DNA of 64,000 nucleotides from NCBI GenBank assembly GCA_026003215.1, contig BPGV01000001.1, positions 1,366,466-1,430,465 on the forward strand. Reading direction: 5' to 3'. Under the pieces are notes generated by a model, which did no database searches, was not told where the DNA came from, and worked only from the letters and a program-made list of their open reading frames with translations. The stretch comes from Bacteroidia bacterium. GTDB taxonomy: Bacteria; Bacteroidota; Bacteroidia; SpSt-205. A program made the translations under genes and the position numbers. Numbering within the stretch: the first letter of the stretch is position 1; each line of letters starts with the position of its first letter. Below are positions 10,547 to 34,967 of this stretch, piece by piece.

Positions 10547-11137
10547 TCAGGCTGGAGTAGGGAAAGCCTCTGGAAACCGGGCTCCTGCCCATATCGTATG
10601 CGGAGGCCAGCGCCAGCGCCGCACTTCGGCCAGACGCTCCGACAAACGTTCGCCTACCCATCGCGCTTGCGCCGGCAGAAGCACATTCCAAAATATAAGG
10701 CCCTCCCTTGCAAGTAAAGAAACGGCCGTATCTACAAACCGCTGGCTCAGAAGCGTCTCAGGGATGCTTTCTTCTTCAAATGCATCTACAAATATCCCGC
10801 TGTATTCCCCATAGAGCTGATGGATAGTCTCTGCAGCATCTCCGAGTACCACCTCATAAGCAAGGGGAAGCGCACAGTGGGCCTCTTGCAGGGCTACCAT
10901 CTCGGCGTACTTTTCCAGCACGGTCACTTGGGGAAGGGGAGGGGTCGCCGTGGAAGCGAGGATTTGCATCAGCGATGCGCCCATTCCGACCAAGAGCACG
11001 CGCTCCCACGGCTGTCCCTCTAACCCAAACGCCTGAAAAGCTTCTTGCCAGGCCATTTTGAGCCGGCCCCCCACATAACAGACCCGCTCGCCTTCAATCA
11101 TCCATGCGCCCCGAACCTTGCGTGCCCGAAACCTCAT
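10547..11137 (-). CDS. Spermidine synthase-like methyltransferase-fold protein
   Basis: A 196-residue Rossmann-fold protein resembling polyamine aminopropyltransferases: a VLLVGMGASLMQIL nucleotide-binding strand-loop, an acidic strand end (VTVLEKYAEMV), and VVLGDAAETIHQLYGEYSGIFVDAF. It is shorter than real SpeE (about 280 residues) and lacks the full N-terminal beta domain, so substrate and activity are open. It starts in an ATGA overlap with the smc stop and ends 40 nt before the PorG-like gene, so it is part of the long minus-strand run. Confidence 0.65.
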   Translation of the reverse strand: MRFRARKVRGAWMIEGERVCYVGGRLKMAWQEAFQAFGLEGQPWERVLLVGMGASLMQILASTATPPLPQVTVLEKYAEMVALQEAHCALPLAYEVVLGDAAETIHQLYGEYSGIFVDAFEEESIPETLLSQRFVDTAVSLLAREGLIFWNVLLPAQARWVGERLSERLAEVRRWRWPPHTIWAGARFPEAFPTPA

Positions 11138-27181: not shown

Positions 27182-28600
27182 ATGGGGGGCCTCTGGCTAA
27201 GTCTCCTCCTATGGGGACAAACGATTACCGCAGAACTGGCCTTAGATAAACGACAGCCCCGCCCCTTGCGCGCAGAATATGTCCAAGCCGACGGCGGACT
27301 CGTTACCGTCTCTTACAAAACGCCTACCTCCATCCGCACCTTCGCCCTCCACAAATACGATGCGGATTTCCAGCACGAGTGGACCCAAGACCTCTTTGAC
27401 CAAAGCACCGGCGAAGAACTCCTTCACCTCGCCGTCGTGGATACCCAAATATGGGTTTTTACCCAACGCACCGAGGGCAACGCCCAAGTGGTGTTAGCCT
27501 ATGTAGCCGACTTAGAAGGCCGCTTCTACCGACGAGGGAAAGAACTTTTCTCCTTCTCTTCAAGCAAAAATCCCCGGCCAGAACTCACCTATGCTCCCAA
27601 CCGCAAATACGCCTGTATAAGTGTAGCCCTACGCTTACCCGCCGATAGCTTAGACCGCATACGCTATTGGCTCATAGGACCGGACACTACCTACGGCGGA
27701 GACTGGCACCTCCCCTTTCGCGAAAAGGAGCTGGAGATCCGCCGCCCCATCCAGCCCAGCCATGAAGGACAACTCTTTGCCTTAGGTACCGTCCGTGAGC
27801 CCAACTCTCCTTATCCGCGCTACTACCTCTTCAAATACGTGCCCGAAGCGGAGCTTACCCTCTCCGTCCCCTTAGAAATAGAAGGCGTATACCTGATTGA
27901 GCCAATGTTCCGCATAGAAAAAGGCGGGGGAGCCCGCATAGCGGGCTTTTACTCCCTACGAAAGGACGCTTCCCAAGTACAAGGGCTCGTCTTTGCCCGA
28001 GTAGAAGGGAGTGGCTTTTTCCTCTCCAATATCCAGCAGATCCCCTTACCCCAAGAAGTTTTACAACGGTTTCTCTCGGAGCGCCAGATCGCCCGAGGCC
28101 GCGGCATCCCTGACCTTTACTTAGACCATCTCATTCCCAAAGCCGATGGAGGGGCCCTCCTGATTGGAGAACAGTTTTATATTACCACCACGACATTCCG
28201 CGATTTTTATGGTTTTTGGTACACACAAGATACCTATCATTACGACGATATCGTAGTTTTCTCGGTAGACTCTTTGGGCCGGCTTCAGTGGTTTCACATT
28301 ATCCCTAAGGCGCAAACGGGGACCGCTGATACCGAACTCTCCTACGGACTGCTGGTAGGGCCAAAAGCGTTATACTTCTTGTATCGGGGCTACGCTCGGG
28401 GGGTGGGAAGCCAAGTATTTGTGGTGCAGCTCAACGAAAAAGGCGAAGCCACACCGCCGCGCGCCTTTATTCAAGGCTTCCGGAGCTCGGATGTTTTTTA
28501 CCGAAAGCTTACCCGCCAGCTCAGCAATACGGAAGGGTTGATAGCCTATCTCCAAAGCCGCACAGGTCGCTTCATTTTAGCGCGGCTGGCGCTTGAGTGA
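27182..28600 (+). CDS. Secreted protein of unknown function, beta-rich
   Basis: A 472-residue protein with a short signal peptide (MGGLWLSLLLWGQTITA). I recognise no named domain. The rest is rich in beta-strand patterns, with recurring YxFKYVPE and VFSVDSLGRLQWFH units that suggest a beta-propeller-like fold, and a segment GGALLIGEQFYIT then DDIVVFSVDSLG that recurs in Bacteroidota hypothetical proteins of similar length. It is probably periplasmic or outer-membrane associated. It follows pyrE by 4 nt with its own promoter and overlaps the convergent cas6 3' end by 24 nt. Confidence 0.7.
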   Translation: MGGLWLSLLLWGQTITAELALDKRQPRPLRAEYVQADGGLVTVSYKTPTSIRTFALHKYDADFQHEWTQDLFDQSTGEELLHLAVVDTQIWVFTQRTEGNAQVVLAYVADLEGRFYRRGKELFSFSSSKNPRPELTYAPNRKYACISVALRLPADSLDRIRYWLIGPDTTYGGDWHLPFREKELEIRRPIQPSHEGQLFALGTVREPNSPYPRYYLFKYVPEAELTLSVPLEIEGVYLIEPMFRIEKGGGARIAGFYSLRKDASQVQGLVFARVEGSGFFLSNIQQIPLPQEVLQRFLSERQIARGRGIPDLYLDHLIPKADGGALLIGEQFYITTTTFRDFYGFWYTQDTYHYDDIVVFSVDSLGRLQWFHIIPKAQTGTADTELSYGLLVGPKALYFLYRGYARGVGSQVFVVQLNEKGEATPPRAFIQGFRSSDVFYRKLTRQLSNTEGLIAYLQSRTGRFILARLALE

Positions 28601-29338
28601 CTTTTTGACCACTTCCACCATGCCGAAGCCCTGTCCATTCCGCTCACCGAAGCCCGCCTGGTAGCCAATCTGAAATACCTCTATAGGCCCTTGATACAGA
28701 AACTCCCCTGCATAAGCCCGCACATGGGTATTATGTACCTGTATCAGCCGCGAGTGCGTGCGCACGGGGAGGAAAAGTCCCTCTTCGGTAGGAATGGGCT
28801 TCCCGAGGGCCTGGGCCTTCCGGCAGAGATTCTGCCAGAGGATACGGCTAAAAGCCCTGTCGTCGGGAGAAAGAAATACCTTTCGTTTTCGGCCGTCTTC
28901 GGAGACCTCAATCGTGGAGACCACTATGGGAGAGAGCGTGCGCACGCGTATAGGCCCTTCTGCGGGGAGGTGCTCTGATAGCACTTCTACCCGTTCTACC
29001 TGTACTAAGGCTCTACCCAGGGCCACTTGGGGTTCCTTCCATATCCCTTGAATGAGTGCTTCTATCAGCGCACTAAGCGGCGAGCTTACCTGCCAGTAAA
29101 ATGGGGGTTTGAGGCGCAACCCCTGGGACTCGCTCCGGGTATGAGCCGCCCGCAACCAGGAAAAGGTATAGCCCTTATAGCGGTGGCCATCCGCTTCGAA
29201 TCCTTCGCTGTGCAACCGTTGCCCTAAGGAGAAGTTCCCCGCATGGACCCACCGATAAAAGACGCCCATCAGCAGCTCAGGATAACGCCAGGGAAGGCGT
29301 ACAGCCCCTTTCGCAGTGAATCTCACCTGAATGCGCAT
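28577..29338 (-). CDS. cas6: CRISPR endoribonuclease Cas6 (stand-alone)
   Basis: About 253 residues with two RAMP/ferredoxin-like halves. The C-terminal Gly-rich loop GFGERNGQGFGMV is nearly identical to that of Pyrococcus Cas6, and LSPIVVST is the usual mid-protein motif. By position, Tyr28 (VFYRW), His43 (RLHSEGF) and Lys55 (HRYKG) match the catalytic Tyr-His-Lys triad, so it is probably active in cutting CRISPR repeat RNA. ATG 29338 is chosen over an in-frame TTG at 29353. It is the last gene of the lpxK-punA-porin run, 4 nt after its neighbour; no repeat array and no other cas gene are in the window. Confidence 0.9.
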   Translation of the reverse strand: MRIQVRFTAKGAVRLPWRYPELLMGVFYRWVHAGNFSLGQRLHSEGFEADGHRYKGYTFSWLRAAHTRSESQGLRLKPPFYWQVSSPLSALIEALIQGIWKEPQVALGRALVQVERVEVLSEHLPAEGPIRVRTLSPIVVSTIEVSEDGRKRKVFLSPDDRAFSRILWQNLCRKAQALGKPIPTEEGLFLPVRTHSRLIQVHNTHVRAYAGEFLYQGPIEVFQIGYQAGFGERNGQGFGMVEVVKKSLKRQPR

Positions 29339-29342
29339 ACGC

Positions 29343-30275
29343 CTAAAATACAAGTTGGACCCGTAGCAGCTGGGCAGGCTCCCCTGCCCTATCCGAGTCC
29401 GTCACCAAAAAGAACGTTTTTTCTGCCTGCTCCTGTGGGGCAATGCCCTCTACTTTGAGCGGGAGAGGCGCTCCTTGTTCATCTTGTAGCACCGTATAGT
29501 AAGGCTGCCCTTGTGCATCTATCCACCCTATTGCAGAACCCAGAACGGGGCCGTCCTCATACGCGTTAGGGGTGTCTTCTGCTGTAGCGGTGTAGAAAAC
29601 TTGCCCTTGCCATTCCACGGCATCGGTAAAAGCCAAAGGCACCCCCGCTATCTCCCCTAAATCATACCACGAAACCGCTATTGAAAGGGTAAACTTGGGT
29701 GGGGAAAAGAGCCCCACTATGGGGTCTACCTCTTCGGGCACCTTACAGCGTAAGAGTGCGCTGGGGGCCTGCTTGCTGCCTCGCTGGAAAAACCACCAGG
29801 CGCGTTCTTGGGCGCGCCAAATGACGCCTTCTATGTTGAGTTCTACGGTAGGCCCTAAGGCGTCTTGTAAGAGGGCATAAAGTTCGGGGGCCTCGGCAAG
29901 GTGGGCAAGGGTAACCTGCGGGGGGTCAAAGTAAGCTACGCCTATATTTCTACGGGTGGGGCGACTGCCTGAGCCGAAAAAGAGGAGCTCCCCATTCGGC
30001 CCCCAGGTGAGGGCTTCCCAATCAGGTTTAGCGGCCTTAGGTATCTCATGGAAAGGCGCATTCGGTCGCAGCGGACAAAGCACACTTTCCAAAGAAGGCC
30101 ATCGAACGCACACAAGAACGTAGGCGTTATCGGGCAATATAGCCAAAAAATCTCCCTTGGCCCCTATGCCCGAAGCGGCTCCAAGGGGTCGCCCTTCGGA
30201 GTCATATAAAGGTTTGCGCGTCAAGACCTGCACCTTAGGGGTGTGCACCTGCTGGACACGAATCAGAGGGTCCAT
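29343..30275 (-). CDS. Conserved beta-rich protein, possibly DUF6929-like
   Basis: A 310-residue protein with no obvious signal peptide and many short beta strands separated by Gly, Asp and Pro turns. The opening GRPLGAASGIGAKGDFLAILPDNAYV, followed by LTWGPNGELLFFGSGS, recalls DUF6929/SdiA-regulated-like proteins that form a propeller, but this assignment is tentative. It lies 1 nt after the porin stop and 4 nt before cas6, so all three are probably co-transcribed. Confidence 0.6.
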   Translation of the reverse strand: MDPLIRVQQVHTPKVQVLTRKPLYDSEGRPLGAASGIGAKGDFLAILPDNAYVLVCVRWPSLESVLCPLRPNAPFHEIPKAAKPDWEALTWGPNGELLFFGSGSRPTRRNIGVAYFDPPQVTLAHLAEAPELYALLQDALGPTVELNIEGVIWRAQERAWWFFQRGSKQAPSALLRCKVPEEVDPIVGLFSPPKFTLSIAVSWYDLGEIAGVPLAFTDAVEWQGQVFYTATAEDTPNAYEDGPVLGSAIGWIDAQGQPYYTVLQDEQGAPLPLKVEGIAPQEQAEKTFFLVTDSDRAGEPAQLLRVQLVF

Positions 30276-32046: not shown

Positions 32047-32874
32047 TCACAACTCCGCAACCAGGTGCGTGAATATTTGCGTAAGCTTAGGTTCGGCCTC
32101 ATTAGCCACGTGTATAATCTCTTCTAAGGAGACCGGTTTGAGGTTGTCTGGGTCGCCTATATCGGTGACGATAGACATAGCGAAGACACGCATCCCCATG
32201 TGGTTAGCGATGATACACTCAGGCACCGTGGACATGCCGACCACATCGCCCCCTATAATCCGGAGGAAGCGGTATTCGGCTCGGGTTTCCAGATTCGGGC
32301 CTTGAACCGCTACATACACGCCTTCTCGGACAGGAATCCCCAATCTTTGGGCTATAGCGCGGGCTTTAGCGATGAGCTCAGGATGATAAGGCGCGCTCAT
32401 GTCCGGGAAGCGTGGCCCCAGCTGGTCCAGATTCACCCCGCGCAGCGGATTTTCCGGGAGCAGGTTTATGTGGTCTGTAATGATCATCAGGTCACCCAGC
32501 TTGTAAGTCAAGTTAAGCGCGCCGGCAGCGTTGGAAAGGAGCAAAGTATGTGCGCCTAAGAGCTTCATGATGCGGATGGGGTAGGTAATCTGGTACATAT
32601 TGTACCCCTCATAATAGTGAAAGCGCCCCTGCATGGCGACGACTTTCTTACCGCCTAAGCGGCCGAAAATGAGCCGCCCAAAGTGACTTTCTACGGTACT
32701 TATGGGAAAATGCGGGATGAAGTTGTAGGCGAGCTGGTGTTCTTTTTCTATGGCTTCGGCGAGGCGGCCCAGTCCTGTGCCTAATACAATCCCTACCTCT
32801 ACTTCCCCTTTGTAGTAACGCCGAATATAGTCCAGCGTCTCTCGGAAATGGCTATAGGCTTCGGGCGTGGTCAT
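32047..32874 (-). CDS. punA: Purine nucleoside phosphorylase, trimeric type
   Basis: A 275-residue PNP that cleaves inosine and guanosine with phosphate. Motifs: the phosphate-binding VLGTGLG near the N-terminus, QGRFHYYEGY, the LLLSNAAGALN loop, and VVGMSTVPECIIANHMGM with the purine-site residues. The ATG at 32874 is the family start; the frame is open to 32958, inside lpxK. It overlaps the lpxK stop by 23 nt. A degenerate element CACTTTTG sits 4 nt before the ATG, so it may also be transcribed on its own. Confidence 0.93.
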   Translation of the reverse strand: MTTPEAYSHFRETLDYIRRYYKGEVEVGIVLGTGLGRLAEAIEKEHQLAYNFIPHFPISTVESHFGRLIFGRLGGKKVVAMQGRFHYYEGYNMYQITYPIRIMKLLGAHTLLLSNAAGALNLTYKLGDLMIITDHINLLPENPLRGVNLDQLGPRFPDMSAPYHPELIAKARAIAQRLGIPVREGVYVAVQGPNLETRAEYRFLRIIGGDVVGMSTVPECIIANHMGMRVFAMSIVTDIGDPDNLKPVSLEEIIHVANEAEPKLTQIFTHLVAEL

Positions 32875-33961
32875 AGTGCAAAAGTGGCGCAAAAAGCTTA
32901 GACAAGAAGCCCGCCGCTTTCTCGGGATCCACTGGCCGCATAGAAATGCGCAAAGCATACAAAGGCAGCCCCTCTAAAGCAGCTAAGGCCGGGGTTTTAT
33001 ACAGGCGCATGATATCTTTTTCCGTAGTCACCATGAGCAGATGAGACAGTTTGAACTTGCGCATTAGCCGTTTATACCGCTGAGCGAGCCAAGCGGCTTT
33101 GGTTTCTGAGAAATAGGCGTGGTCAGGGAAAGTATGGGTTTCGGGTAAGTAGGCTCCTTGACTCTTAAGGAGCGCAAAAAAACTCTTTGGGGTAGCAATG
33201 CCACAAAAGGCCAAAACGCTTTGTCCTGTGAGCGCGCTTAGGGGTAAAGGCTGCAGGCCAGAAAAGGCCGGGATAAGCCCCTCAGGTACATACTCAAAGG
33301 TGAGGGAAGCCTTAGCTAATCGCTTGGGAGGCGATTTGGGGTTTTCCTTCTTATTAAGAACTATGAAATGGGCGCGTCGGTAGCTGCGAAGCGGCTCACG
33401 GAGCCGTCCCAGCGGAAAAAGCCAATCCTTCCATGGCGGCTTGGCTGCGTCCACCAGCAAAATATCTATGTCGCGGTGCAGCTTACGGTGCTGGAAAGCA
33501 TCGTCCAATACCAGGATTTGTAGGTGGGGATAGGTTTGGAGGAGTTTTTGGCCGCCTTCATATCTATTCTCGCACACCGCTACGGGAATCTCCGGCAGGC
33601 GGGCCTTTATTAAGCACGCTTCATCGCCAAATAGGACTGCTGGTTGTGCTTTATCTAAGGAAACCTCTACATAGCCGCGGGTCTGGCGGCCATATCCCCG
33701 GCTAAGGTAAGCTACTGCTACCCCCTTACCCCGTAGCCAATCCAAAAGATACAAGGCAAAAGGGGTTTTGCCACTGCCGCCTAAGGTGAGATTGCCTATG
33801 CTCACCACCTGGCAAGGGAGGCGATGGATAGGAAGCCACTTACGATCGTAGAGCCAGTTGCGCACCGTTATAACCACGCCATATACAAGGGCTATGGGCA
33901 AGGCCAAGAGCTTACCTATCCCTAAGCCTACCTTTTGGAGCAGCTTACCCACCCGCCACAT
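32852..33961 (-). CDS. lpxK: Tetraacyldisaccharide 4'-kinase
   Basis: Lipid A pathway kinase that phosphorylates the tetraacyldisaccharide at the inner membrane; 369 residues. An N-terminal membrane helix (KLLALPIALVYGVVITVRNWLYD) precedes the P-loop NLTLGGSGKTPF, then AYLSRGYGRQTRGY and the acidic LVLDDAFQHRKLHRDIDILLVDA segment. Start ATG 33961 is the family start, preceded by ATACTTTG with 4-nt spacing. It heads the run lpxK-punA-porin-DUF-cas6. The organism therefore makes lipid A. Confidence 0.95.
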   Translation of the reverse strand: MWRVGKLLQKVGLGIGKLLALPIALVYGVVITVRNWLYDRKWLPIHRLPCQVVSIGNLTLGGSGKTPFALYLLDWLRGKGVAVAYLSRGYGRQTRGYVEVSLDKAQPAVLFGDEACLIKARLPEIPVAVCENRYEGGQKLLQTYPHLQILVLDDAFQHRKLHRDIDILLVDAAKPPWKDWLFPLGRLREPLRSYRRAHFIVLNKKENPKSPPKRLAKASLTFEYVPEGLIPAFSGLQPLPLSALTGQSVLAFCGIATPKSFFALLKSQGAYLPETHTFPDHAYFSETKAAWLAQRYKRLMRKFKLSHLLMVTTEKDIMRLYKTPALAALEGLPLYALRISMRPVDPEKAAGFLSKLFAPLLHYDHARSL

Positions 33962-33974
33962 GGGGCAAAGTATG

Positions 33975-33982
33975 TAGTTTTG
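33975..33982 (+). promoter_or_regulatory. TAnnTTTG (-7) element for bioB
   Basis: Reads TAGTTTTG, then CTTG, then ATG 33987; 4-nt spacing. The lpxK element ATACTTTG (minus strand, 33966-33973) lies 1 nt away, back to back. Confidence 0.6.
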
Positions 33983-33986
33983 CTTG

Positions 33987-34967
33987 ATGGAGCGTTTTAT
34001 CGTACGGCATGATTGGACCCGAGAAGAGGTAGCTACCCAGTATCGACGCCCCCTCTTAGCCCTCGTCATGGAAGCCGCCGCAGTACACCGGCACTACCAC
34101 ACCCCCGGAGAGGTACAAGCTTGTACACTTCTTTCTATCAAGACGGGGGGGTGTCCAGAGGACTGCGCATATTGTGCGCAGTCGGTACGCTACCAGACTG
34201 GCCTCAAACCGCACCGCCTTTTAGACGTAGAAGCCGTAGTAAAAGCCGCTCAGGAAGCTAAAGCCGCCGGCGCTACCCGCTTCTGCATGGGGGCCGCCTG
34301 GCGAGAAGTGCGAAATAACCGAGACTTTGAAAAAGTGCTGGAAATGGTCCGACAGGTGCGTAGCCTTGGGTTAGAAGTATGCGCTACCCTCGGCATGCTC
34401 ACCCCAGAACAAGCCGCCGCCCTCAAAGAAGCGGGCCTCACCGCCTATAACCACAACTTAGACACCTCAGAGGCCTACTATTCCCACATTATCACGACAC
34501 GCACCTACCACGATCGCCTACAGACCTTGGAAGCTGTGCGGCAAGCCGGCCTATCGGTATGTTGTGGAGGTATATTAGGGCTGGGCGAGAGCGAAGAAGA
34601 CCGCATAGACCTCCTCCATACCTTAGCCACCTTAGAGCCACACCCCGAATCCGTACCTATCAATGCCCTGGTTCCTATTTCGGGGACACCGCTGGAAGGG
34701 GCCTCCGCTCCCACAGTCTGGGAGCTGGTGCGCGCCATCGCTACCGCCCGCATTCTTATGCCTAAGAGTATGATTCGGCTGGCAGCGGGCCGCGAAAAAC
34801 TCTCCCCCGTAGAACAAGCACTCTGCTTCGTGGCAGGGGCCAACTCTATTTTCTTAGGCGATAAACTCCTCACTACGCCTAATGCTCCTGTGTCCGAGGA
34901 CAAAACACTCTTTGACCTCTTAGGCATCCAGCCCTTACCGGCTTTTGCGGATACTTTACCGGCCTGA
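33987..34967 (+). CDS. bioB: Biotin synthase
   Basis: Radical-SAM enzyme that inserts sulfur into dethiobiotin; 326 residues. The CxxxCxxC cluster for the 4Fe-4S centre is in [13 protein letters not shown] near residue 55; downstream Cys residues (GAAWR and VCATLG regions) and the conserved [12 protein letters not shown] segment match BioB. The ATG at 33987 is supported by its element; an adjacent TTG codon is not needed. No other bio gene is in the window. Confidence 0.96.

Follow-up and report, generated by a model that had tools for sequence, protein, structure and literature searches.

Introduction

Co-existing class 1 CRISPR systems in Sulfolobus islandicus and in Pyrococcus furiosus use one Cas6 in trans (PMC11127173), and a cell of Synechocystis (PMC3575380) or Marinomonas (PMC5576922) contains more than one Cas6, each enzyme preferring a repeat of its own. 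In addition, effector modules have been described to be exchanged while adaptation genes, array and cas6 stay in place (PMC6452270). Sharing of Cas6 and shuffling of modules are thus already known habits of CRISPR systems, and the case reported here fits them, while no paper on lone chromosomal cas6 genes under that name was found in our literature search. The cas6 gene in question lies in a Bacteroidia genome that also carries two cas loci, named locus A and locus B, and very probably encodes the dedicated pre-crRNA processing nuclease of locus B, acting in trans from a distance of ~240 kb. As in S. islandicus and P. furiosus, a cas locus without cas6 would rely on a Cas6 gene at a different genomic site; in those organisms, however, the enzyme that is shared is part of another CRISPR locus, whereas the present one belongs to none and matches the array of locus B by family.

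A lone cas6 gene behind housekeeping genes

The genome under study (G000) is one contig of 2,268,343 bases, and the 64-kb stretch analysed (1,366,466-1,430,465) is referred to as the window; gene coordinates in this section are those of the window. The cas6 gene is located on the minus strand at 28577..29338, in an open reading frame that is intact and reaches a TTG at 29353. An earlier sequence-only reading had given the gene as 28577-29353, and the intact Cas6 stood, while the strand is now given as minus and the start was moved: because the proteins of relatives begin with MRL or MRI, translation likely starts at the ATG at 29338, which would yield a protein of 253 aa. The gene order proposed in that reading, lpxK, punA, porin, DUF and cas6, was matched by profile hits. 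These genes, all on the minus strand, are lpxK (tetraacyldisaccharide 4'-kinase, 32852..34069) and punA (purine nucleoside phosphorylase, 32047..32958), both of whose true starts are probably internal, a putative porin gene (PF14121, 30277..32043), and a gene for a DUF6929 protein (29343..30275), whose stop codon stands 4 nt ahead of the cas6 ATG. The operon is bounded by a convergent plus-strand gene of unknown function (27182..28600), which shares 24 nt with the 3' end of cas6. Promoter and terminator scans were run, and the promoter scans around cas6 performed no better than chance; cas6 is presumably co-transcribed with the lpxK-punA-porin-DUF6929 string.

The window protein scored 108 bits against TIGR01877 (cut-off 58.65), 96 bits against PF01881 (cut-off 23) and 195 bits against the PADLOC Cas6b profile, and is thus placed among the Cas6 endoribonucleases by curated profiles above their cut-offs. 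Its AlphaFold model (pLDDT 80) has the Cas6 fold with two RRM-like domains, the best match in the PDB being 5yi6 (E 4e-19, TM 0.75). The catalytic positions Tyr28, His43 and Lys55 are all present, as is the Gly-rich loop (GFGERNGQGFG) expected at the C-terminal side of a Cas6; these features, which had been read as signs of an active Cas6, are invariant in 4/4 members of its family (the B family, see below), down to 40% identity, so that this part of the earlier reading was confirmed, and activity itself is predicted from these residues. In the alignment, the three residues line up with those of Cas6 proteins of solved structure. Both fold and Tyr/His/Lys positions align with 5yi6, a Methanococcus-type Cas6, and with P. 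furiosus Cas6 (3i4h, 3pkm), albeit at just 22-24% identity and with a hairpin in the putative substrate repeat that is predicted to be weak. Between species, comparison of the window gene with other family members gave dN values of 0.30-0.41 with saturated dS, which, as read from these codon changes, means that the B-family cas6 is under purifying selection. Silent changes are in strong excess in the window cas6, and a pseudogene reading of the gene was rejected.

Two cas loci with arrays elsewhere in the genome

A periodicity scan with exact 20-mers detected no CRISPR array in the window. The earlier statement that neither an array nor other cas genes are present therefore held within the 64 kb, but the genome as a whole has two cas loci with arrays. 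Profile searches of G000 revealed two cas1 and two cas6 genes, and two arrays were found in a search confined to repeats ending in GAAAC (the array search as a whole was limited to repeats with GAAAC or TTGAAAY at their end). All six frames of locus A, locus B and the window were also searched with a profile built from seven Cas6 proteins, which gave no cas6 beyond those of locus A and the window.

The type I-B system of locus A (126-140 kb) is complete and consists of cas3, cas5, cas7, cas11b, cas8b, cas6, cas4 and cas1, together with an array of GTTTTTATCGGCCCATTATGGAGTGGAAAC (repeat A). Its Cas6 is intact and only 21% identical to the window Cas6, which falls into a separate clade (100/100 support) and hence is not a member of the locus A family; the idea that the window gene was borrowed from locus A was rejected. 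Repeats A and B are identical in 19/30 bases. By the sequence-only reading, its proposal of a role in trans would be refuted if the genome carried a complete cas operon that includes a cas6. Locus A is such an operon, yet it does not refute that role, because its Cas6, Cas1 and repeat are of another family.

Locus B extends over 1.605-1.640 Mb and contains the I-B genes cas8b, cas7b, cas5, cas3, cas1, cas4 and, on the opposite strand, cas2, together with an array of 36 copies of GTGAAAATCGCACCAATGTGGGATTGAAAC (repeat B; contig positions 1,638,093-1,640,366). Neither the curated profile nor the seven-Cas6 profile over all six frames detected a cas6 at this locus, from which the window gene is ~240 kb apart. 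Locus B is hence of the kind for which the earlier reading had proposed to search the genome, namely type I cas genes and an array lacking cas6. No Rfam CRISPR repeat family matched array B, and no copy of repeat B with up to 3 mismatches of 30 was found outside this array in the genome.

Within locus B, cas8-cas7-cas5 is set apart from cas3-cas1-cas4 by ~26 kb of defence genes (1,608,230-1,633,801) of helicase, methyltransferase and Hma/Dpd/DISARM-like types, and a gene for a DpdB/DndB-like protein of the DGQHR type (extracted stretch L023:5642-6757) stands directly upstream of cas8, where cas6 would be expected. Apparent frame breaks affect cas8, which is in two frames near 1,605,190, and cas3 near 1,635,500; cas5 seems disrupted at its end. 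HmaC-like and DrmMI-like genes of the island show apparent frame breaks as well (extracted stretch L007, ~1450 and 10760-10805). Several of these breaks fall at homopolymer runs, with other genes of the island split at runs of G, and the island is either decaying or carries homopolymer sequencing errors. If it is decaying, the crRNAs of array B may be left without a partner effector, which would put interference by locus B in doubt.

Cas6, Cas1 and repeats in relatives

Close cas6 orthologues were found in two of the 59 relatives searched, both of the same genus (G001 and G002). In the MAG G002 (SKW77; the contig is the same as JAOAHZ010000004.1), an orthologue with 63% identity opens a type I-B operon, cas6-cas8-cas7-cas5-cas3-cas1-cas4, which is adjoined by an array of GTGAAAATCGCACCAATGTGGGATTGAAAT. 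This repeat is identical to repeat B in 29/30 bases, with only the last base differing; its type occurs 238 times in G002 and is present in G000 and G002, but in none of the nine further genomes of the genus. Cas1 and Cas4 of locus B share 68% identity with their G002 counterparts; among the effector proteins, those with a match reach only 26-39%, and the two Cas8s hit different profiles. Compared with the reported exchange of effector modules (PMC6452270), locus B likewise keeps cas1, cas4 and repeat close to those of G002 next to divergent effectors, but cas6 is here not beside the adaptation genes. By this analogy, the pattern at locus B, with adaptation genes and array kept and effectors different, is best described as the known effector module exchange.

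A more distant homologue (40% identity) was found in bacterium HR24 by an alignment-based scan of genome contigs. It lies between cas1 and cas2 in the order cas4-cas1-cas6-cas2, and the first of the repeats by this cas6 is identical to repeat B in 25/30 bases. The repeat B and HR24 variants have the same small predicted hairpin (z -1.9 and -3.9, respectively, the G000 value alone being modest), as expected for the substrate of a shared Cas6. The same two groups emerge from the tree of Cas6, from Cas1 identities and from the repeats: group B comprises the window, G002 and HR24, with G001 placed by Cas6 alone, and group A comprises locus A, G005 and G009 (the G009 contig did not include its array). 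The window Cas6 accordingly belongs to the family that is encoded with repeat B and its Cas1 elsewhere.

In G001, the orthologue (54% identity) stands alone between ileS and aspS (extracted stretch L039:4078-4845), and synteny of cas6 with the porin gene, which the sequence-only reading had suggested checking, is not conserved, as the gene has another location in each relative found. DUF6929 genes in relatives had neither cas6 nor other window genes alongside. A mobile carrier of the window cas6 was also considered and gave no sign: no cas6 relative was found in phage records, and Thermus plasmids carry Cas6 at 29-30% identity only.

Proposed role of the window Cas6 and alternative readings

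Since Cas6, Cas1 and repeats sort into the same two families, the window gene would be array B's own Cas6. We propose that Cas6 is made at the end of the housekeeping gene string, diffuses, and acts in trans on the array B transcript, where it would bind the hairpin of each repeat and cut near the hairpin's 3' base, leaving crRNAs with a ATTGAAAC-type 5' handle for the type I-B effector of locus B. The separation of the gene from its array may have come about through effector exchange at locus B or through relocation of cas6; the cas6 site differs in each of the four genomes (G000, G001, G002 and HR24). The option of a Cas6 serving arrays in trans, raised in the earlier reading, is therefore well supported by a locus B with array and I-B genes but without cas6, and by an orthologue heading an operon beside a near-identical repeat.

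Against this assignment, the locus A Cas6 may also cut repeat B. If it processed both arrays, the window Cas6 would be a redundant remnant, left behind by a former operon of locus B and on the way to being lost, a view in keeping with the intact Cas6 of locus A and the damaged look of the locus B effector genes. We consider it improbable, however, as the two enzymes are 21% identical and their repeats 19/30, each tracking its own Cas1 family, as the frame, the catalytic residues and the excess of silent change in the window gene do not resemble those of a remnant, and as Cas6 enzymes in other multi-system genomes are specific to their own repeats (PMC3575380, PMC5576922).

The lone orthologue in G001 also speaks against an assignment to array B, as neither array nor cas1 was found there, though this MAG is 81% complete. 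Arrays are often missing from MAGs. A Cas6 that no longer serves CRISPR and instead cuts some other RNA of the cell, for instance a transcript of the housekeeping operon, would agree with the lack of a detected array in G001 and with a cas6 that stands alone among housekeeping genes in both G000 and G001. The two neighbourhoods, however, have no genes in common and hence suggest no common new partner, G000 has no repeat-like sequence outside array B at the threshold given above, and the cognate array B, present without any other cas6, accounts for the retention of the gene. The new RNA substrate put forward in the earlier reading thus found no support, and we regard it as extremely unlikely. 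There is likewise a very slim chance that the B-family Cas6 has become, within the genus, an independent gene beside housekeeping genes (the porin operon in G000, ileS-aspS in G001), with a steady supply uncoupled from cas regulation, and acts in G001 on another RNA without an array.

With the window Cas6 read as the displaced nuclease of array B, the case illustrates that sequence alone can suffice to match a separated Cas6 to its locus, since Cas6, Cas1 and repeat vary together. It also calls for caution when judging from a window, in that a CRISPR locus without cas6 is not necessarily incomplete and a lone cas6 is not necessarily an orphan. The genome is also a natural test case for whether a cell's two Cas6-repeat pairs work independently, and for what follows when a housekeeping operon drives cas6.

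Additional observations at locus A

The RAMP search gave no match to cmr1, and no cas10 was present among the ORFs scanned, in a partial type III-B operon that directly follows array A (135,833-139,972) and comprises the end of cmr3, cmr4, cmr5, cmr6 and csx1. The A-family Cas6 proteins (extracted stretches L002:1486-2256, L041:1224-2051 and L040:2310-3068) have no equivalents of the B-family Tyr28 and His43 and hence must use other catalytic residues.
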